DNA from: Ectocarpus siliculosus | Lineage: Eukaryota; Sar; Phaeophyceae; Ectocarpales; Ectocarpaceae | Assembly: GCA_000310025.1 (NCBI GenBank) | Contig: FN649728.1 | Coordinates: 475,391 to 539,390, forward strand | Reading direction: 5' to 3' | DNA length: 64,000 nt | Part shown: positions 23,949 to 56,579 of the stretch, piece by piece | Layout of the letters: the number at the start of each line of letters is the position of its first letter | Numbering within the stretch: the first letter of the stretch is position 1 | The notes under the pieces: generated by a model | Database searches by the model: none | What the model was told of the DNA's origin: nothing | Seen by the model: only the letters and a program-made list of their open reading frames with translations | Made by a program: the position numbers and the translations under genes

Positions 23949-26900
23949 ATGAGTGAGGAATCCGAGACGACGGCTGGTGGTGATGGCGTGATTGAGGAGC
24001 AACGACGAGAAGGTGCATTGGTGGAAGCTACAGATCTACATCGCCCGGCTCTGACTCAAGCAGAGTCATTGGCACGCCCACCGAACCTGCCACCACCAGC
24101 GCCCCTAGGAAGGTAACGCATGAGATCCACCACCTTTCGACTTCGAGACCCTCGGATTGGCTGTGGACTTGATGCGAGAAATATATTCCCGACCACACTG
24201 AACCACATCTTGCCACAGCTGCAGTATATCAAACATGTGTAGGCAGCGTAATCTACGCTACTGTAGACGATGATCATACGGTTGGAGAGGCACCACACGC
24301 AAAGCGATTGCTACAGTATTTCTATGACCCACGAGCAGAAGCGATGTCTGTTGCACCACAGTGTGCCGAAGCTGTTGTAGCTTCTACAGCAGTCCTGGAA
24401 AACCCTCGATTCGTAGAGAACAATCCGTCGCGCAAGGGTTGCCGAAATCTTGTCATGACTGGTCTGCAACACGGGCGAGTACATCCTGTCGTGCCACGCG
24501 ACGAGTATCCTGTTCCACGCAAGCAACCAGAGGAACACACAGAAGAAGTGTTAAAACTTGAGATTCGAGGAAACAGGCGCACGGCTCATCACTGAAGCAG
24601 TCCGCTTGGACAACCCTTCGCCGTACTATAGGTCCACCAGGGGTTCTGTTGCGGCGGTCGTCCCGAACACCAGCTGCGGCCTAACGTCGGAGGCCGATCC
24701 CGGTAAGGCCGCCTACGCCGTACTCGAGCGACGCTTGCAGAAGGCCATCACCGCCAATACCAAGTGGCAGCAAAAGTATGAAATCGAGACTAAGGTAAGT
24801 CCGACGGAGCGTTGTTCACCATACCTCTGAACTACCGCGGACGCTCGCTAATAAGCTTGATATATTGATGTACATCTACCACGCACTCTTCGTTCCTCGG
24901 GGGTTCAGCGCCTCCAGCGCTTACATGGCCAGTCATTGCACTCTTCCCCATCCCCCAGTGCGTCCTTTGTTTTAGGTACATAGTACCGTCCTTCCCCGGT
25001 ATGCTTCTCAATGCATGTTTTACACAAATAATAGGGTCACCGGTCTTCGACAGCTCGACATCGAATGAAAAAGCCTCGTCATCACGCAGGCGTTTTATTG
25101 CCGAGAAAAACGTCGTGACGCACAATGTGCCAGCGTGGTGGTCCTGCTGCCGGGAGGTGCCATTCCGGCCGAGTTCAGCGTCGCCTGTGACCAATCAGCT
25201 CACGCACAGCGAAGCATTCACAAACACTCCCCCACTTATCATATATGTCGCGTGGTGTTTGCTCTCTGCCCCTCTCTCTCTTTCTCTCTCCCTAGAGGGT
25301 AGGCCACGGTCCCAAGGATGATGTAGTCGTGTTGTCACTGTATCACGAGCGTGCGCCCCCCACTACCACCGCTTCCTAGAGACAGCGCAGGAGCCTTCTA
25401 CAGACATGGAAGACGTTGGCAGAGATTACGCACTGCACATAGCTTAAGAGCGTTACACTCCTACCTACTGTCGAGAGGTAGAAAGGCGGACAATGTACAT
25501 AAGAGGTACCGTCTGAGGTCCAGCTTCGAATCGATGACCCCTACTTCCGAACAGGCCAATGAGGAGCTCGGGAGGCGAGTGAGGTCATGGAAAGCAGCAT
25601 ATTCACGGGAGGTTAACAGCAGAGAGCTGCTGGAAAAGGAGCTGTCGAACACCCGCCAGGTATGAATGATCGGAGAGGTGTAGATCACCCTGGTTGTAGA
25701 ACTAAACACACCTAGCCGCCCTGGTCTAAGCCCTGCAAGTCCGCTATGCGTCCTTCATGGCGTTTATGTACGCCTTGTTACCCGCGTGCGTATAATTGTT
25801 TACGTAACACGGCGGGTTGGCTCATGGAAGCGTTAGGAAAAAGGCCCAGCGACGGCCATTGCCAATATTTCATCCCTAAGTGGTGGAAAACAACTAGGCC
25901 AGGAATATGTCGAGTGATTGAAGCCGATACCAGAAGAGCTGTTTCTACGGTGTTCACTGAATACTAAGTGGTATGGATTATGTTGTTTCCGCCCTTCACA
26001 CTGCAGGTGTCAGAATCTCAAGCGGAGACCTACCGCAAAGAAATTCGTCGACTGGCGGCCCTTCTTCTGTGTGGCCCGAGCGCCTCTGCTTCTGCCGTTC
26101 TGGTGAACGCTAGTAACAGCAGCGGTCGGGCTGCGGAGAGTGATGCTCACGCGGTTTCTCCGGGGAGTGGAAGGTATTCTACACCACCGGGAAGAGGAAA
26201 ACGGCCGTCCGGTGGATCACTCTCCGCCGAGGAAGACGCACCTACTCGACCGCTGCACCACCACCTACGCCACAACTCTGTCGGCTCGACCAAGCCGTCG
26301 TCACGAAACGGGGCTACTGCTACTCGTGGCAGTACGCCAAGAACCCGCATGGGTTGGTCGACGACACCGGGCGACGGGGGTCTGTTTTGGCGACAGAAGC
26401 CGCTTGACATCGACCTCACAACGCCGGGACAGAATCGAGAACCCTCCGCTGCGACACAAGAACAAAAAGAAGTTTGTGAAGAAGACGAAGAACCGGCGGA
26501 GTTGAACTCGTGCCCGGACAGGGGTGGCGACTTGACCGGTCCAGGCGCGGCACGTTCGGCAGAGGAGGACGGGATGCCGGAGTGGTCGCACACAAGCCTC
26601 TCTGTCTCCAGACAACCCGCACGTTCCGGGAGGGGCCAGACAAAGCGAGCCCCCGGGTGGGGGCCTTCTGCCGGGCGGTACTCCAAAGTTGGAGGGGTGA
26701 GCAGGCTCCGGCTTGCACTGCAAGGAGGCAAGTCTTCGATCTTTGCCCACGGGGCGTCGACGAGACCGCTCGTTTTGGCGAGAGAGTCCCCGGGAGGTGG
26801 GTGGCACGACGGCCGCGAGCTCGAAACGGTCCCCGAAGGATCGGGGGCAACCGAGATGGCGCCAGACGCAACAAAGGAAGAAATGTCGGATTTCCTCGGC

Positions 26901-28506
26901 GACAATGAATGCGGAGAAGAAACATCCCCAGACGGGGCAGCGGGAGGGCCGAGAGCGGAGTCGGCCTACGGCGATGACCGCGGCAACGCTGCAGGTGATG
27001 ACGGAGAGTCTGACGGGGAAAGATCGGCGGGTAGCATGGAGATGCAAGGGCAAAATGATGGAGACCACCCATTCGGGAGACTAGGGCCGCCGATATTAGA
27101 GGAAGAATCGAAAGAAAGAGGTGGGTTCGCGGGCGACCTCACCTACACCGACCACTCGGAAGCGACGAGGCTATCCCCCCTCCCTCCAGCACGAGGCCCG
27201 GGGGTACACGATGCTAACGGAGTGCCTCCTAATAAGCCGGAGAAAGATGGCGGCCGTGGCGGGAAATGGGAGAAAGATGACGGCAAACCATCCCCGCTGA
27301 TCGTTGGAAACTCCTCAACGTCACCATCATCATCGGTCACCCGCAGCGTCAGTGAGGGGGTCGCCAGCAGATACCAACGCCGAACCGAGTTCGCCTTGCC
27401 GCCCCCTCCAGTGTCTTCCGCTGCTAATGAAGGCGTTTCTCGTGGCGGAGCGACCGACCACCGGTTATCGTCGTCTCCGCTACCCCCGCGGTCTCCGCGA
27501 ATCTACCACCCGAGCCCCAAGTCCGAGGGTAGCGATGATGACGACCCCGCCGGCGTGTCAATAAAGTCCCCTTCTTCCGTGTCGGACGTGGGGTCATCTG
27601 ATGAATCGGGGTTCGAGTCATCTTCCGCGTCCGGCCGACCTCTACCTGGTGAAAATGGGACAAGTGCAAGATCTCGTACGGTTGTCTTGGTCAAGGGGAA
27701 GGGGGCCGGGGGAAGGGTAAGCAGCAGGCGGGGCGGCAACGCCGCCATGCGCAGCAGGAACAGGGCGGCGCTTGAACGACGTGCTGCCAGTTGCGGTGGC
27801 GGTGGTCGCCACGAGATATGCGCCATCCTGGGCGGCGGAAACGACGGGGCCGGGTTCAGCGACGGCGGCGTCGTGGTCGGGCATAACCAGGGCCTAACGG
27901 CCAAGGCAGCAAGACACGATGAATCTCGTCATCCCAGCAGCAGCAATATCGGCAGCAATAGGCACACCCTCGACTCAGACGGTGAGGTCCAAGAGGTTTG
28001 CCCTTTGTCGAGGAAGCAAGCTCTCCAAGGAGGACGAGGAGGGCTACAAGTTGGAGAGGGATTGCACTGCGGCGGAACAAGCACCAGCGGTGGCGGCATT
28101 GGGCTGGGTCTTGTCCTGGGCCCCACGTCGGACACCAGCATTTCGGACCTCTCTGACGGAGGGTTCGACAGCAGCAGCAGCTTAGATTGGAACACCAAAG
28201 ACCATGGGTTCAGCACCGTTGAGCCTCCGTTCTGCCAAACTGGTGCGGCGACCTATGGTGCAATCGGCGTGGGTGCTCTACCTGATGCCAACGAACTACT
28301 CGGCACACCAACCGAAAGCCTTGATGGTACATCGGGTGACGGTATCGCTCCTCCTTCTGCTTCTGCAGAGGGCAACGGTATCGGTGGCGTGCTGGAAGAG
28401 GTGTCTCTTCTGGCACCGGAGCAACCGCAGCCACAGAAGCCGCGAATTATTGAGCTGTACCGCTCCAGTGTTGCTTCGTCGACCTCGGTGTCATCTGGTG
28501 GCCACC

Positions 28507-28573
<67 letters not shown>

Positions 28574-31500
28574 CAGCTGCAGTAGCAGCAGCAGCTGCAC
28601 ACCATCAGGTCATGCTCGTGCAGATTTGAACAACGAGGGGGACGATGAGGAGTCGCTTGAGGTGTCGCTAGGGTCTTCCGACTACACGGCGGATCCCTTC
28701 ACAGGCAACGTTTCCCTGGGCTCTTTAAATCTAAGGCAAGCAGTCCGTCGAGACGTTCGTAGGTAGGACAGGTGAAGTTGGTGCATCGGAGGGTTCCTTC
28801 CTTGGTTTGAGTCGAATACTGCAAGCTCACCATAGAATGACGGTTGTCATCATCGTATCTAAAGTGATGGTATGTCGCGTCCCGAGGCGTTTGCTGTGCT
28901 ACCTGTTCTTGTCCTGCCCGAACGTTGCCGACTGCAACGATCATGAGATCGAACTTTATCTTCGTGTCCCAAGGTCCCAAGGCTTGGTTTCGACTCAAAT
29001 TGTCTACACATGCCTCGGTACGCCCGCGACCCGGCGAGAATTCAGTCAGACAGCTAGGCGAACAATTCCGTCTACTCTGACCGAGCATCCAGCCTTAGAG
29101 TAGATGCATAACTTGCACAGCGATCATGTCCAGAGCCTCCGCGGATCTCAAAGGTAAACAGACACGGAAGAACTAGTTCGGACGAAGGCCTCCCCACCCG
29201 CTTGATACCTTCCTCCATGCCCCGCCTACGGCTTAACGCGTGCTCTCTTGCAGCGACTCCGGGTCGTCGGACACCGAGCATTCCTTCTCCGTGGAAAACG
29301 TCGGCAGCCTTCCGGCTGCGGGCACAGCTGCTGCTTCAACGTCAAGTGAGCAAGCTTCCGCGAAGGCAAAACGTACCGACAGCGTCGAGGAGAACGGCTC
29401 TGGCGATGGCCGCACGGACGGCGAAGTTGCTCAAGAGGGGATGAGGGAGGGGAAGGATGGAGAAGAAGGGCAGGAAGGCGAACAACCCTGTCTTTTCGAG
29501 AGCCTTATCTCGGTGAGTTGGGGATCCGTGGAATAAGCGCTTCGACACAATCCCCGCGGAACAGCAGTACAGAAAGCGCCGTTGCGGGCATGCAACCAAA
29601 CCCACCTGTGGCCCATACCTCGCTTCTGACGCGCTGGTTGTACTGGGCCGTGGATCAGGGGGAAGAAATCAGCATCGAGTTCGAGTGAGAATCTCGCGTC
29701 GGCTTCGCGGCTGGAGGGAAGCTTTCCGCAATTAAAGATTGTGCGATAATGGTTGCGGGCGAAGCGTGATTTACAACATGAAGCACCGTGGGATTGCCTT
29801 TCAAAGCCGTTTGAAGAGAGATTTTCGCCTGTCCATCAACCCGCTCATCCGTCCACCCACCTTCGATAATTGAAATCAGGTCGGTATTCCAGCGCACTGG
29901 GACCTGAGGCCGTTGAGCAACCAGCCCACCGCCGCGGAAGCGAGCGGGCGTGACGTCACTCCCTCGGCAAACCGTCGAACCTGGGGAATATACGACAACG
30001 AGAGCGACGACACCAACAGAAGCAGCGGCGGCGGGAGTGGGGCAGGAAGCTGGATACGATCGGTGTTTTCTTCTTCTCCTTCTGGTGGCAGAAGAGCGGG
30101 AGAAAAGCCTCCAGCTCACGTTTCCCCAAGGCCTAGATCGATCGACCCCGGTCCTCGCCGTGGCAATCTTTCGGCGAAGTCGTCCTCGTCCGTGGAGGAA
30201 GAGAGAACGTTGTCGGGTCCTGCCGGTACCATCCCCGACGGAGACGATGATGCCAACTGCCTGCAGGATGTCACCGGTACCGCCAAGGAGGGAGGAACGA
30301 CGCCAATACCCCACGGGAGTGTCGAGGGGCGATTGGCACCTCAGGTCTGTTTTGCGTGTACTTTAGTTCACGCTTGCCGGCTGACAATTGGGCAGAAGGG
30401 ATTATTTGTAGAGGAAGAAACCTCAAGGGCGTTCAGTGCATGTCGTATCCACTCCGTAGAGAGAAAAGCTAGTTCACGATTCAACGATATTGGTAGGTAT
30501 TTAGAGAAGGTCACTGGTGAGGCGAAGCGGAGGTTTGACCATAGTTTGTTGCGGTCATGGCTTAAGGCAAACCCATTCCTGGAGGGGGGGGTGCTTCAAT
30601 GTTTTTCATGCCTTAGCGATTAGGCCATTGAACACGCGTCCTCATGAGGACATTGTTCCCACATGACCGATCACCGATGGTCAACCGTCCCTTCCTACTT
30701 TTGGGAGGGCTCATTCTGACTTCGTTCACTTTCGGGTGTCTACACACTGGCGGCCGAAAAACAAACAGGTTCTAGCCTGCTACCCTCCAGAGGCGACCCT
30801 TCCTTTCAACGTGTCGGACTACTGCTTCCCGCAAGGCGTTCAAGCGACAAGGATCGACGCACGGGCATCCCAGAGCAGCCTCAACAAGGTGCTCTATCAG
30901 CCGGGCGCCTGTCAGCGTGGGAGCCAGTCCTTCGTCTTCATGTTCTCAGGTGACAGTACTAAGAGGGTTCCTTGGGGCGGGACTGTCAACATTCGTAAAG
31001 GAAACACTCGTAAGAAGGAACCGGACGCTACTGGTTGATATCTCGTAAACAAGGAGTTTGTCTGGTCTGTGATGGCATTTGTTGGTGACTTCAACGCCGT
31101 GGTCACCGTGAAAATAGTGGGCGGAGAAGAAGAATAAAACACACGACGTTCTCACTCGAGGAGTACCGCTTCCTTCCTCAAAGGCAGCCACAGAAAAACC
31201 GTCCCGCTTTTCGTCCACCCGTCAAACTTAAACCCTTTCCACAGGGGACCACGGTTTCCGAGTCGCCGGGGAGGCCCGGAACCACAGGACGTACGGCGTG
31301 TGCGTCACCTACCCGAAGGTCATGCCTTCCCGCGAGGTTAGCCGCAATGGATCCGAATGCGGCAGGTCCCCACAGGGTGACGATGACGATGAGGAGGACA
31401 AGGATGGTACGGTATTGACGGTGGCGCCGTTAGCCGAAACGTCCGGTACGGCGCCTGGGACAGTGAAGAACGGGGGAGATGAGAACGGCAGAGGGGCACG

Positions 31501-47517: not shown

Positions 47518-50500
47518 ATGACGACAAACTCCAAGCGTCTGACCATAGGTGTGGCGACAGCGGCCGCCGCCCTTCTCCGGGCGAAGCATCCTACAGCTTC
47601 CCTCTGCTTGGCCTCCTGCAGACCGGCCAATAAACTTGCGGATATTCCGTGTTCTCTCCCCTTCTGCCCGTGAACATGCTCAGACGACCGAGCCGCCAGA
47701 CCTTTGTGTGCGAAGGGATGGGCCACGACATGTGAGCGTCGAGGCGCCCGAATGCCGCACAACTTCAAGGCAGAAGGAGTCCTTCGAAGTGACGCGAGTC
47801 TTGCAGTTGAACGCCACGCCCGAGGAGATATTTGCAGGTGCGACTGAGTGCCTCAGAGGGACGCTGATTGGCAACCCTCGTTGCGTTAGTTGTGGTGGGA
47901 TCGCTGTGTACGCGCGCGACTGTGGAAGAGGGGTTGAGCCTGGTCCGCAAGCTGCAACCGTAGAGCGGGTAGGTGCAAGAAGATGAGGCAGAGGAACGCC
48001 GATGCCAGGTCTAGGCGGAGTTCCACATTTCCGGCCGAGGCACGTATTTTGCTGTTGTGGTGTACTTCAGTAGAATTCAGTGCAGGGCTAACCGCCGAGA
48101 GATGTTCTAGAATAGTTTTTTTTTTGTGAAATTGCCCGGGTGTAGTAGCCCTCAGGCTCGGATGTCCGTCCCCCGCTTCTCCCCACCGAGGTTAGATTTT
48201 GAGTTCCGATGTCACCCACCCCAATTCCCTTCTCGCTCACATCCAAAACAAATCTCAAACAAAAAACAAGGTGTCGGCAGTCCCGTTGTGGATTGGCTGT
48301 GGGACGGCTTCAATGCCGTGGTGTTATCCTATGGGCAGGCCCGTTCGGGCAAGACATCTCTCCTGGTTGGAAACGGCGCGCCGTTGACAGAAACGCCTGG
48401 AGAGAGCAGTCAACGAGCACAAAGTCTGCCGAAGGGGAACTCAGAGCCGGGCCGGATCGGTAGTGGAAGGCTAGGGAAAGGACGACGAAGAGGCGACGAG
48501 GAAGGCTTACTGAAAGACATCTTGAGAGATATCTTCGACAAGGCAGCCGCCGCAGGTCCCGCTGATGCAGCCGACCCCGTCCTCGTCGCCTGCCAAGAGA
48601 AACAGCTATCTCCCACCACTGGGGAACCACCCTACGAAACTCTCAACCCTTTGGCGGGATCGTGGTCACCATCTCGGCACGCGAATGATAGCCCGGGATT
48701 CGACGTCTGCCCAGGCGGCATCGGCACTCTGCTTGGCACCCAAGAAGTTACCCCTAACGGTGCTGGGACAGCGACAGTGCACACTAAAAGATATGGAATA
48801 GATTCTGAGCGTTCGGAAGGGAGGAGGGACAGTACTGAACCGGTGGCGACGGCAGACCAGATCTACGGCAGTGAGAGCAGGAATGAGACGGGGAAACAAA
48901 TATCACGTCGCAGTATAACCGGAGAGAGCGGGCTTAGAGCTGTTGTGGCGCTAAGCGCCTGGGAGGTGGCGGGGAAGCACGTGACGGACCTGTTCGTAGA
49001 TCCATCACCAGACAGCGGCAGTACCGGCGGTAGTAGTAACGGGAGGAAGAACAGCATGGGGAACAGTAGCAGCAGTATCGAAGTAGATGACAAGGGCACG
49101 AGGGGCGTGGCGGGGCGTAGTCGGAGCCGAAACAGGAGCAACAGGAATCGAGCGGCCGGGTCAGACTGTTCTCGAAGAGGTGGAAACCGGGGCGGCGGCA
49201 GTCGGAACAGCAGGGGCCGTTCCGGGAGTGATGACTCTTCTTCCACGGGGGCGGGGTGGCCAACTGGCTACCCCGAGGGCTTTCTTTCCGTGCGGGCGCC
49301 GAATCTTAGCACCGCGTTGGAGCTCGTGGACGTTGCCCAGAGCCGATGTAGCGCCTGCCGAAGGCAGAGGGCCACCGCGACGAGCGAAGCTGCGAAGGGA
49401 AGCAGGGGGAAAGGAGGAGGCGGGGGGAAGGCGGGAGGCGGTACTGCAGTGGAATCTGCGGCTGCTGCCGCAAACAGCAGTCACGTTTTCTTTCGGGTCG
49501 TGGTCTACAATACTCTAGAAGAAACCGTGAGCACGCTACACATTGTTGATCTCGCGGGAGGCTGGGAGGTGAGAAGTCGAGAATACCAGGTCGACGGGTA
49601 GCGGGTAACTTGGTGGGAGTTTCGGAATTTTTTTTCATGGTTTCGAAGCTTCGATGGCCTCATGTCGAACGACGCTGACGAATCCTTCCCCCACGCCTTT
49701 GTAGTGTCTTTGAATTTGTTTTTTCTCGACGTCTGACACCGGCCAACGCGCCTTTTGCCGCCATCCGTGGCCCGATGCTCTTTCGGTCAGCCTCCCAGTG
49801 AGAAGCCTGCAGGCAGGCGCGGAAGCAAATGTTCGGGGATGGGGTCTGTTAGACCCAGCGCCGTTTCTCGGGAATGGAACAGCTTTGATGCGATGATGGT
49901 TGGGTTGGTTCCACCGCCCCCTCCTCCACCTCCAGCGACCGCCGTGCCGCCCGACAGAGTAAACGACAGCGGCTGCAACTGCGGACACGTAGAGAAAGGG
50001 GGCATTGCGTTCGATGCTGGCGGGGCTACGGCAGTGAACGCGGAGGCAGCGGCATCGGAGTCGCGGCCTGCACCCCCACCGCCGGCACATCCTGTGTTTG
50101 GGTCTCCAAAAGGAAAGACGTTCGGCGGTGGGGGCGGGGGCAAGCTAGTAGAGGCCCTCCGGCCGCTGATTTCGGGGAACACGCGTACGTGGCTGGTCGT
50201 GTCGGTGGGTGGGGATGGCAAGTGTGGGGGAGGGGCGGCATGGCGGGCCCTGGATGTCGCTCGGCGGGCTACGGGTATCTCAACAACGTGCATCCGTCTT
50301 AGGTGAGGTTTTGTGGGTACACAACGTGCGCGGGTCGATCGTGTGTTGGTCCGGCCGAGAAAGTATGACGAGCCTGGTGGTTCGCATGATGGCCATTGCT
50401 CAATGCCTGCACGTTCCTCCCGCCCGTTGGTACCCTATGTTGAATATCTTGGGCCGATTCTCCAAGCTCAATTACTACGAGTCAATAGCGGCGCCGAAAT

Positions 50501-53500
50501 GGCGGCGCTGGAACCATCGGTTCCCTTCAATTGGACGCACTAGCATAGGATTTCGAGCCTGATACCGGTGATTTTCTTTGCTGCATGCCTGCCTTGCCTT
50601 TGTGCTAGAAGTGGTGGTTCGGTCACCTCTTCGTGCTAAGAAAAGGGATTGAACACATGTGGACAGCGGGTGTGGCCGCGGCATAGCACAGACTTAACAT
50701 GGTGGTGCGGTTCAGTGCGTGCAAAATGGAAGTCAAAGCGGTATCCACGGAGCTTGTCCAACACAAGTGCTACAAAGCATACCGTACAAAAGGATATCGG
50801 GAAATGTCTGGTCTCCAGCAGAATATTAGTAGAGTAGGCGTAGTTGTAAAGGGTGCGACTTCTTTGCCTTGGAGGTTATGACATTCACCCTCATGCCTCC
50901 TTTTGCCTCCCTTGCCTACTTGGGTGGTATCGTCGAAAACTGTCGCCTTGTTGCGGGCAGAGGAGTAGCCCTCACCGACCTTCGCTTACGGAGCCCAAGC
51001 GAGGTCCTCCCTGTGGTCGACGGTTCGCACACTTCCAACCCCGAAGACGAATTCAGTGCCTCTGTCAGTGGCGTGAGCAACCGGCGAAGAGGTCGGACCC
51101 GCGCTTCTGCATCCACTACCTCCGTCGATACAGTCACTGCCCTCACCGTAGGTTCGCCACTGAACGAGACGAGTCGTGTTGAGCAAACCCTGCTGTCGAC
51201 AGCGGGGGGCGGTCAAAATTCTACTACGTTTGGCTATCCCGAGCCGGAACAGGTCCTGCATGCACCCATATCGCTGGTGCCTTTGTTGTCTGGCTTGTCG
51301 GAAGGCGAACGATCGTTGTTTTCCTTCGGAGAAAGAACAGGAGACGGAGGAGAATCAAGTGCGGGGTCCAGCAGCGTGGACGATTTTCTAGCGGGGTTTG
51401 TGCGAGGAGGTGGTGACGATGACGATCGACCGCGACTAATTTCTTCCAGCGGGGTGTTGCAGGCCGACGATATGCTGGAGAACGAGCCAGAACAGGCCAC
51501 TCCTGCTGGGCAAGTCATCGCCGCCCCCTTAGGGGAGCGGGGAGACGGAAATAGGAGCGACGTTGTGAAAGGAAAACCTTCGAGGACCTCAAAACCAAAA
51601 GCCTTTGCAGCGTCTGCGGTTCGGGGTAGCCTCAGCTTCAGCGAGCAGCGGCAGCATGATCAGCATGCACCACAACTCCAAGGTTCACGGTTGAGACCCG
51701 GTGGCCGGGCGGCGACCGTCGGCCCGAAGCCGTCGGCGGGCACGCCATCAACGACGTCGTTTACGTACAACGGTAGCGGATCTGCTCGGGGGTTCGAAAA
51801 CGACGGCGGAGAGGAGGACGACAACGACCCGCCAGCAACGCTGAGGGAGTCAAGACTCAGAAATGAGGCCTTCAGTAGAAAAGTCGCCGCCGGTGAGCCG
51901 GGGGTTATAGATGCCGAAGCGGAGTCTCCGGCGGAGTCTAGGGCAAGAGAGAACATCGATCGCATGATGTCGTTGCTTCTGGAAGAGGTGCTCCCGGATA
52001 GACGCAAAGCAAGTTCAACCGCCGGACCGGCAGTGACTTCATCGAGTAGTGAAGGCGGTGGAGGGCACCATGCTGCTTCCCCTGTAGGAGTCAGCAGGGA
52101 TCGTACAGCAGCAGCGTCCGCAACTGCCGATGCTGTCGCACGTCAGTCTTCATCATTTCGCTCGTCTCTGCCTCGTGGGCCCACCCCTCCTCCGGTAGGG
52201 AGGCCCTCGGATGATGACCAATCGGCCCCGGCAATGCAAAGCACGCCCGATAGTGCAACCTTCTTGACACCGATAGAAGTTCTCATGCGTACTCCAGCAG
52301 GCGGGGCGTCCATAGGCTGCAAGTCAAAGAGGGAAGAAGAGCAGCGGGGGCACTGTCGACAGTGTACCGCATCGGATGACACAACGCCGACTAGCCGTGC
52401 CGAAACAAGTCGCAGGGCGAAAGAAGAGACGTTGCACCCGCCTGGGTGGGTGCAAGGCCAGGCGCCGAAGGTAAGAGCAGTGGGAAGAAGTGGACGAATG
52501 GCCGATGAACACACATCAATGCCGACTCCTAAGGCGCGCGACATTGTCGGCAGAGACACGGGCGACGCTAACATTGGGCGTCGATCTCGGGCTGCGAGCA
52601 GCGGCACCGGGGACGCTCTCTCCCGTCTGTCACGAGGCAACAGTAGCGGCAGCAGCAGCGGCGGAGGAGGCACCCGACGTTCAAGTCGAGGCTTGTCGAC
52701 TGGGGGGGCTCGGCAGACGAGTACATCGGACCGAAACACCGATGAACGGGACGGTGGAGAATGCATGAAAGTAGAAGTGGGTTCGGCACGGGTGGAAAAC
52801 AATGGCGCCCACGCTTTCGAGGATAAGTTGGACGGTATGGAGGATGAGGGAGGGGCACTGTTGGGCCGACATCATGCTGCATTGTTGCGTGTGGTTCGCG
52901 AGCAGGAGGATCGCGGAAAGCAGGTACGCTGTGAAATCTTCATGGACTATGCAAAGAGGACGCTGGCGCGAGCGTTGGACTGATGCTGAAAGGAGTCACC
53001 TGCTGCGCACACGAGAATATGTTTGTTGATGGTGTTTGGAACCACAGTAGTGCGCGTGTAACCGCCAATGCTCTCATGATTTATGTAACACGTGCAAAAA
53101 GCAGAGCATTCGAAAAATGGTGCCAGGTATGGTGCAACAGACACATTTGTTCATCAAAGAAAAAAAATATTCGATCGGGCTGCTCGTACACAGATGATAC
53201 GCCGCTTCGAGGCGAAGGAATGCGACTGGCTTGAACGGGTGACAACTCTGGAGGCCGACCTAGAAGGCTTGCGGGCGGAGGCGGTCGAGACAAGGGGTCG
53301 ACTGCGAAGAGCGGAGGAATCATCACCATCCGCCGAAGTGTTCGAACGGTGAGCTCTGCAATTCTCCCCTGCGCTAGCGTAGACCGCCTGTCTACCTTCT
53401 ATCGTAAGGTTCGAGATGTTCTCCAATCTCAAGACCACACTTTCGCGAACAGTTCTACACGTGTGAAAGTCTTGCCGTGGCCCAGTAGCTTCACACCGAT

Positions 53501-56500
53501 GTCCGTGTCTTGTACGAGTCGGTAGAACACCCCGTAAGTGCTACACGTCATGTCTTGTGCGTTACATTATGTTGGCCATGTCTCTGGCCAACGTTGTACG
53601 ACTTCTGTCGTCAATCCCTTGGAATCGCACGCTTGCAACGGCGTCGTGCTGCCTCACGCGACCTAGGTACGAGGCCCACACCGGAATTCTCGAGGCGGAG
53701 AACACCTCCCTCCGAGACCAGAACATCTCGCTCGAGCTGAGACTGCTGGATACCCTCCGACAATCGACAACGACTGCTTCGTCGACGGGGAGAACGACCG
53801 TCGCAACCGAAACCAACTCCCACCTTTCCCTGTCAGGGTGCCAACAACACCGACATCATGCCGCGCTAGTCTCGACGAGGGCGACCGCTACCGGCGAGAA
53901 GGAGGGGAACCAGGACAGTGAAATATGTCCCAAACAGCACAAACCCGGCACTGGTGCGCTTCAGCAAGCAGAAGCATCAGCAAAAGCCTGCGTCGATGGC
54001 GGTGCTACATCTAGGTTCAGGGTGGATGGGAGAGTACCACCGTCCGGGAGCGTGGGAGAGGCGGGAAAGCCATGGCCAAGCGGGGGGACGCCGATGTGCG
54101 CTGCGGTGCTGAAAGACTTGCGACGGAGGTTGAAGGAAGCGGAGCTGGAGGCGAAGAAAATGAGGGCGGAAAGGGCGGGAATGGACAAGCGCGATCGACT
54201 CGTGAGTGCGGGGTCGATCTCGCTCCTGTGATTGGTGCTCCTAATTTGTTGTTCGGCAGGGCATTTACTTATTGTGGAGGTGACGGTGGAAATGGGGATG
54301 GCGGGCAGGCGCCACTGTAATAATCTTGCTATTGTTGTTGTTGCTGTTATTGTTGTTGTTTTTGTTGCTGTCGTGGACAGCTTCGATTGCGTTGTGTGCT
54401 GCTTCCCGCCACGTCGGGACGTCCCTTCTGGGGCTCGATACCCACGACCATGGTTAAAGGAACGAAACCATGCCTGACGGGTTTGTCCGTGGACCGCTGG
54501 TGCCGAAAACATGTTCTAGTCAACGGCTTTTATATTAGACACGCAATATATTTTCTCCATCAATGAAGAGAAAGTGCCGCATGCCATCTTCCCCCAACTG
54601 ATGGTCAGTGTCAAGCTCAGCTCCGGACGTTGAAGGAGCAGAGATCGAAGCTGAGGGAGTTCCTGCTCAGGGAGAGGGAGCACGAGGTCAAGTTAACCGC
54701 AAGCCGCCTCGAGTCGGCGCGGGCGGAGGTGATCGCTGAGGACAAGGCGGCGGAGGTTGAACACCTCCTCGATAACCAGGTGCTGCGCGCTGAACGCGTA
54801 TTCAATCTGCTGATACCACGGCTATTGGTCTTGTATTCGTTGTTGTTCGTGATGTTGGCCCTGCGTCTTCTGCAGCTGGTTGCTACGATGCGTGAATCAT
54901 ATCCCACAGGTGGTCGTAGACCGGGCACAAACCTACCCGATGGACAACTGACGTGGTACCGAGATAGGGAGCGTGTTTTCTGAACACATCGAACTCATTG
55001 AGTTTTGGACGCGGCCGTATCTCGATTAGTCTACATGTCGCAAAGAGAAGAACAGGCTTCGGTTTACTCTATGGGGAAAGCAACAGCGGTTTCGTGGTGG
55101 CCAGGTTTCGAGAAGTCGTCCCGGGACATCCCCACGTTGGACATGTCACCAGGAAACAAATATAAAACAATATGAAATATGATCAAGTTGGAAATCACGA
55201 TGCATCCGATGTCCCGATCGATTTACGCTGTTTGTCGAGTATGCCGATGAGCAACTCGTGAAAAGCTATTCCAGAGCTTGTTATTATCATCGCACGCCGT
55301 CTGCGTGCTCACGGACATTCCGCTAAAGAATAAGACTAGTCTTTCATGCCAGCAGAGCAGTTGTATCGAGTAGGGACTTTCCGAAGCACCATTCTCCGCC
55401 TCTAATCCCGTGTTGTCGGCCCTCCGCCGTCTCTGCCCGCCCCGGTCCCCTGTGGCCCTCCAAACCACTCATTTGTCAGGCCGCGTTGGTGGCGGAAAGA
55501 GAAGACCTAGTTCTCGCGCTTGCAGGTAAACAGAAGAAATGACCGAATTGAACAGCAGGTGGTCGAGCCGTAAATGATCAGGTGTAGGACCAGGGGAGCT
55601 CAATCCACAGCGGTACCAACGACATTTGTGTTTCGTTGTGTCCCGATTTGACCATTGTCGCTGTTTCCGGACTTAAACGTGTTTCACTTTCGTCACAGAG
55701 GAGAGGAAAAAGAGCCGCCAGTTCGACGAAGACCGCGTAGCGTACGGACACATTCGGCGTTTCATCGAGCGGCACGCCGGCGGCCGGCCTGCGGAGTGGG
55801 ACGAAGAGGTTTCAGTGATCGGGCACGATCAGGTTAAGGATGTGGGTGCTCGAAGACCCGCCGAAAATTTGGAAGGTATGGGGAAAGAACGAAAATATCC
55901 TTCTCTTCATCGTCAGGAAGTCGTTGGGATGGGTAATACCCCTGGTGGTGCTCCAGGGCATCGTGAGGCGGGGGAAAGGGTGAAGGAGTCGGCTGTGCGG
56001 GCCTTAGATGAAAGGATGGCGACAAGGGGAAGCGGTGGTGGCCGTTCTGTCAATGGTGTCGAGGAGGGTGGTGGTGGTGGCGTTTCGTTTGAAACCCTCC
56101 GACCACGAAAGAGCGCGAGCACGATCGATGCCACACCGTCTGGTAGTTGCCAAGGCGTCACCACAGATGGCAGCCGGCACTTGTACTCCGATGTTTACAG
56201 GCAGAAGCTGAGTGCTCGCGTTGGGGCAATTTGTCGAGACGACGACGACGCCCGTTCCGGCTACGGCACTGGTGGTGCCCGCTTTCGAGAAGACAGCAAC
56301 AACTACAGCCATAGTCACTACGCGTTGAAGTTCACCGTTGGAAGCGAACGGAGTGGGCAGGTCAAGCCTCTTGTGCAGAGAACCCCGCTGAAAGGCTCGC
56401 TGCAGGCGGAGTGCAGCCGCAAGGCCGATGGCGGCTATTCCTCGCACGGGAAAACGGCGGTGCCCGACGACGATTGGCTATTTGGCGGCGGAGGAGAACA

Positions 56501-56579
56501 CGGTCCTGGCGTTCACGATAACGAGAATGCCGAGTACCACGAAAGTAGTTTCGCCACGACAAAGGCGGTGGAGGGCTAG
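47518..56579 (+). CDS. Highly divergent kinesin-like protein, about 1931 aa, 10 exons
   Basis: Exons: 47518-47548, 47622-47837, 48271-49568, 49791-50302, 50961-52923, 53194-53348, 53667-54201, 54621-54779, 55480-55525 and 55699-56579; phases agree throughout. The motor spans residues 11-685, about twice the usual 340. Landmarks in kinesin order: INLRIFRVLSPSARE (strand 1); SFEVTRVLQLNATPEEIF (usual F-x-x-D-x-V-F...A-T-Q-E-E-V-F); DGFNAVVLSYGQARSGKT, with the P-loop at 104-111; VALSAWEVAGKHVTDLF (usual SFxEIYNExVxDLL); NSSHVFF at switch I; LHIVDLAGGWE at switch II; and KLVEALRPLISGNTRTW (usual SKLTRLLQDSLGGN). Switch I lacks the SSRSH block and switch II has GGWE where GSE is usual, so ATPase activity is doubtful. 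Long Gly/Ser inserts separate the blocks. Residues 687-1340 are disordered. Coiled coils follow at about 1341-1450 and 1545-1680, then a Gly/Ser-rich tail. Exon 1 (MTTNSKRLTI) rests on a short 73-bp intron and is the weakest part; the exon 8 donor (gtgctg) is also weak. Confidence 0.78.

Follow-up and report, generated by a model that had tools for sequence, protein, structure and literature searches.

A divergent kinesin-superfamily gene of Ectocarpus siliculosus with an intact P-loop and altered switches: a candidate non-cycling pseudo-motor

Costal-2 is an animal Hedgehog scaffold, and Vik1 is a protein that lacks a P-loop and has its kinesin homology domain at the C-terminus. Kinesin-11 proteins, i.e. 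KIF26 (KIF26A/KIF26B) and C. elegans VAB-8, have been described as lacking a functional P-loop and have a kinesin fold, regarded as non-motile, within a long protein used for regulation and not for transport (PMC12646758). Drosophila Costal-2 is an atypical kinesin that may lack motor activity and was omitted from kinesin trees for its divergence (PMC2867816). The kinesin-6 MKLP2 (KIF20A) has 99 aa inserted in loop 6, makes additional contacts with tubulin through loop 8 and works as an active motor (PMC5602324). In a phylogenetic survey, 166 of the 1,624 kinesin-like sequences were excluded for excessive divergence, with the suggestion that a large share of these fit no established family (PMC2867816).

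We analysed a window of 64,000 nt from the alga E. siliculosus (contig FN649728.1, positions 475,391 to 539,390 of the forward strand; coordinates below are those of the window). We consider it fairly probable that it holds a single-copy kinesin-superfamily gene whose N-terminal motor has turned into a non-cycling pseudo-motor. The protein would resemble KIF26/VAB-8 as a non-motile kinesin fold in a long chain, but its P-loop is intact and it is the switches that are changed. With Costal-2 it shares an atypical, divergent sequence and a possible lack of motor activity, but no relation was detected beyond the common kinesin superfamily. The motor is enlarged as in kinesin-6, the insert of MKLP2 lying in the same place as an insert of about 115 aa here, whereas kinesin-6 members conserve the nucleotide-binding motifs and hydrolyse ATP and here both switches are altered. 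The Vik1/Cik1-type domain (PF16796, Microtub_bd), in which the kinesin fold is used without catalysis, matched the protein weakly (26.2 bits at best, below the cut-off of 27); the present protein differs in scoring higher with PF00225 than with PF16796, in its intact P-loop and in the N-terminal position of the domain.

The gene lies on the + strand at 47518-56579. Precisely, 10 exons with GT-AG borders join in phase into 5.8 kb of coding sequence without a stop, giving a predicted protein of 1,935 aa with zero internal stops. An earlier reading of the same DNA (hereafter the sequence-only reading) had proposed a 1931-aa model at the same coordinates, which our rebuilt model confirms with 4 aa more. 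The exons are the following:

47518-47548, + strand: exon 1 (31 bases), coding for the start Met and residues 1-10, joined in phase with exon 2
47622-47837, + strand: exon 2, motor from beta1 to alpha1, INLRIFRVLSP ... FEVTRVLQLNATPEEIFAG; PF00225 at residues 45-117, PF16796 at residues 16-116
48271-49568, + strand: exon 3, from the P-loop as far as switch II, inserts at L5, L6, L8 and L9; 496-aa open frame; PF00225
49791-50302, + strand: exon 4, end of the motor; 189-aa open frame
50961-52923, + strand: exon 5, low-complexity Ser/Gly/Arg linker of about 620 aa; 716-aa open frame
53194-53348, + strand: exon 6, charged helical segment, phase-consistent
53667-54201, + strand: exon 7, charged helical segments flanking a low-complexity spacer
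54609-54779, + strand: exon 8, charged helical segment
55480-55525, + strand: exon 9 (46 bp), within the charged helical region, phase-consistent
55699-56579, + strand: exon 10, last part of the helix, then a low-complexity tail of 260 aa and the stop TAG; 300-aa open frame; single copy in the genome

Exon 1 is the least certain, being separated from exon 2 by a 73-bp intron with a pyrimidine-rich acceptor. For exon 4 we used the acceptor at 49791 as the in-phase choice that keeps the frame; by eye, 49806 is a weaker in-phase alternative. The longest open frame is 716 aa, whereas no frame was longer than 282 aa when the region's bases were shuffled 200 times. Of the nine introns, all but the 73-bp first one have stops in all frames.

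The gene is single copy: searches with pieces of the motor, with exon 4 and with the tail matched this locus alone, besides other kinesins at the P-loop, and found no paralogue in the genome. A 28% match in the same genome (L038) was spurious. We also rejected as a close paralogue L065 (G000:C26:6118000-6124500, minus strand), a divergent kinesin-like locus with P-loop GLSGSGKT, NHQSTRGH and DLAGTEPAG; given its switch motifs STRGH and DLAGTE, it is not of the same degenerate type. L065 is absent from the list of the six-frame PF00225 search.

These data bear on whether the gene is a decaying kinesin pseudogene, from which selection was lost recently and which has not yet gained stops. We regard this as very unlikely, as the ten exons join without stop or frame shift, the 716-aa frame is far above the shuffles, the divergence seems old and the genome yielded no intact paralogue to take over. 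The active-site changes described below, the repeat-like inserts and the codon usage speak for it; synonymous codon usage, with 3,069 kinesin codons from the same genome as the training set, did not separate the coding frame from the other frames.

The kinesin identity of the motor was evaluated with profile and sequence matches. The sequence-only reading had proposed a comparison of the model with Pfam Kinesin (PF00225), and the match is significant: 41.1 bits (E 1.4e-10) for the whole protein and 45.5 bits (E 6.4e-12) for the motor, residues 1-686, against a curated cut-off of 29.3. The insert-trimmed core reached 72.6 bits (E 3.8e-20), a value to be read with the consideration that trimming was the analyst's choice, so that more reliance should be placed on the two untrimmed scores. 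The segment beyond the P-loop matched PF00225 by itself (26.7 bits, E 3.4e-6), and neither the reversed core nor the shuffled post-P-loop core gave a PF00225 match. The best PDB sequence match was KIF15 (kinesin-12), with E 2e-5 for the untrimmed and 3e-8 for the trimmed motor, the latter aligning along the whole KIF15 motor (chain residues 51-349); yet KIF15 is just the top of many similar scores, and its rank is no evidence for family membership. The last third of the motor was unreported by Pfam. For its C-terminal block (alpha5, beta8, alpha6; residues 633-680) we built an HMM from the corresponding C-terminal blocks of twelve kinesins of the same genome, to which it scored 11.5 bits, a value reached by 0 of 2000 shuffles. 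Judged by these matches, the gene is a genuine, highly divergent member of the kinesin superfamily, and we file it there under no named family.

The landmarks and inserts of the motor are the following:

residues 15-24: beta1
48333-48356, + strand: P-loop GQARSGKT (residues 104-111), an intact GxxxxGKT aligned with the P-loop of KIF15
about residues 160-173, + strand: alpha2b EGLLKDILRDIFDK, preceding beta4 GLRAVVALSAWEVAGKHVTDLF
48573-48917, + strand: loop 6 insert of about 115 aa between alpha2b and beta4, a gap between aligned PF00225 blocks
49023-49268, + strand: loop 8 insert of about 82 aa, Ser/Gly/Arg with net charge +10, delimited by composition
49389-49457, + strand: loop 9 insert of about 23 aa, Gly-rich, just before switch I and overlapping an 18-bp tandem repeat
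49470-49484, + strand: switch I site ANSSH (residues 483-487), after alpha3, in place of SSRSH
49548-49568, + strand: switch II DLAGGWE (residues 509-515), in place of DLAGSE[KR]
49914-50141, + strand: loop 12 insert of about 76 aa, Pro/Ala/Gly
50142-50285, + strand: alpha5-beta8-alpha6 block KLVEALRPLISGNTRTWLVV...ALDVARRATGIST (residues 633-680), with the motor's last landmark KLVEALRPLISGNTRT...ARRATGI

A further insert of about 30 aa stands at the loop 5 position. From beta1 through the alpha6 block the landmarks occur in the right order for a kinesin, and the motor covers about residues 14-680, roughly 667 aa versus the 327 positions of the PF00225 profile; on both counts we agree with the sequence-only reading, which had described ordered landmarks and a motor of twice the normal length, about 675 residues. 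Its P-loop (intact, GQARSGKT) and its switch II (DLAGGWE) also stand, both in the translation and in the alignment to KIF15. Its statement that switch I lacks the SSRSH block holds in part: the motif is degenerate (ANSSH) but not wholly absent, Ser486 and His487 surviving.

The switch I Arg (in SSRSH) and the switch II Glu (in DLAGSE) of kinesin-1 form a latch (Arg203-Glu236) that positions the lytic water(s), Ser201/Ser202 contact magnesium and the gamma-phosphate, and latch mutation powerfully inhibits hydrolysis (PMC4924600). In the alignment to KIF15, AANSSH stands opposite ESSRSH and DLAGGW opposite DLAGSE. The catalytic motif NxxSSRSH reads AAANSSH here, so that two Ser and the Arg of SSRSH are replaced; the position of the latch Arg is Ser485, with no Arg at or beside the switch I site, and that of the latch Glu is Trp514, directly followed by Glu515. 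With ANSSH for SSRSH and DLAGGWE for DLAGSE, both partners of the latch are therefore missing. Among 25 other kinesin-like loci read in the same genome, SSR[S/A]H was present in 20 and DLAGSE in 19, and neither ANSSH nor DLAGGWE occurred in any; the other loci had a variant such as STRGH/DLAGTE, a masked stretch at the motif or no motif found in one frame.

Among the findings that count against a pseudo-motor, Glu515 could replace Glu236 through a one-residue shift, and switch II retains its Asp509 and Gly512; the codon-usage result above and the alpha4, YRDSKLT and heptad results below also count against it. Alternatively, the gene could be a fast-evolving but still catalytic kinesin, in which Glu515, Asn484, Ser485 and Ser486 assume the latch and magnesium contacts in a shifted register, the inserts being harmless loops on the surface. 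The preserved P-loop and switch I His are consistent with it, as is the fact that MKLP2 works despite its loop 6 insert (PMC5602324), and other kinesins of the genome keep their motifs while having long Gly/Ser inserts in loop 12. We consider it unlikely all the same, since no Arg is found at or beside the switch I site, neither latch partner is conserved and the tubulin-binding motifs cannot be recognised.

With respect to the latter, alpha4, tested over 16 columns, scored no higher than expected from shuffles (the observed score was reached by 541 of 5000), and the YRDSKLT block (L12) was not found in exon 4.

The sequence-only reading had taken the long Gly/Ser inserts as a suggestion of a pseudo-motor. 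The inserts are present but by themselves are no mark of one, because kinesins of the same genome with intact motifs carry them too (e.g. in loop 12 of L009, L024 and L064), so that they are weak evidence in this respect. Together with L044, these loci have motor-loop inserts of about 35 to 100 aa, Gly/Ser- or Ala-rich and especially in loop 12, with their motifs kept. L044 (G000:C20:95000-99500) has the P-loop GATNSGKS, SSRAH at switch I and, close to where the motor ends, a poly-Ser run; by eye it looks like a kinesin-6. On this comparison within the genome, the inserts are a habit of the genome and no sign of lost function. We rejected the possibility that they are unspliced introns, since exon 3 stays open over about 430 codons and the introns, except the first, have stops in all frames. 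The 18-bp tandem repeat (49405-49441, 2.1 copies) codes for the Gly-rich insert of loop 9, which suggests how that insert originated. A single-sequence AlphaFold2 prediction of exon 3 alone gave a pLDDT of 38 and is uninformative on the fold.

Returning to the pseudo-motor, which the sequence-only reading had proposed, we retain it as the best reading given two degenerate switches, by inference from the sequence. The P-loop would probably still hold nucleotide. Loss of the switch I Arg and the switch II Glu would mean loss of the latch that positions the lytic water, and the Gly-rich loop 9 insert and the Pro/Gly loop 12 insert would separate the pocket from the tubulin face; with the latch residues gone and the pocket and face parted in this way, neither ATP hydrolysis nor stepping would be expected. 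The domain would then be a structural module, stabilised by nucleotide, within a long protein that is mostly disordered. As the ATP-gripping loop is intact and the parts that burn ATP are eroded, the protein is probably a stationary adaptor and not a walking motor.

The same reading had suggested binding of microtubules or ATP without stepping. The intact P-loop is in line with the ATP part, but canonical microtubule binding is doubtful because the tubulin-binding face appears as eroded as the active site, and the failure to find alpha4 and the YRDSKLT block leaves it unsupported. The basic loop 8 insert may be an electrostatic tether to microtubules. The charged helical C-terminal half would dimerise the protein or bind partners. 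A coiled-coil scaffold tail, as previously claimed, is plausible: the tail looks helical, with 131 residues free of proline, but a crude test gave no heptad signal beyond that of shuffles.

The protein downstream of the motor is without relatives elsewhere in the genome. We compared ten of the longest other frames of the window with Pfam and none had a match above a cut-off, so that the neighbourhood offers no functional hint. A 932-aa frame (25968-28763, + strand) has a helical-looking start and no Pfam match, and is possibly an exon of another long low-complexity protein. The isolation of the post-motor part would fit a lineage-specific kinesin class with a mechanochemistry of its own, conserved across the relatives of the alga, and surveys do list unassigned and excluded divergent kinesins (PMC2867816; PMC8906236). 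No relative of the gene was found on any contig of the viral and prokaryotic collections, as expected for a eukaryotic gene, and the viral collection yielded no kinesin loci for alignment. We judge such a class quite unlikely. A related proposal, somewhat less doubtful though still unlikely, is that a lineage-specific class kept the P-loop, discarded the switch latch and rebuilt its tubulin face with disordered inserts, giving a nucleotide-held microtubule scaffold conserved in related algae.

Non-motile kinesins are a known kind; what distinguishes this gene is that the P-loop is kept and both switches are lost. On its sequence, it appears to fit the set-aside divergent kinesins, with an intact P-loop beside altered switches as its unusual pattern. 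Divergent kinesins of this type are easily missed: a six-frame PF00225 search of the genome did not report the gene, and the main survey excluded such sequences (PMC2867816). Pseudo-motors reveal the uses of the kinesin fold after walking is lost, and with its P-loop kept and its two switches lost this natural protein could separate nucleotide binding from hydrolysis.
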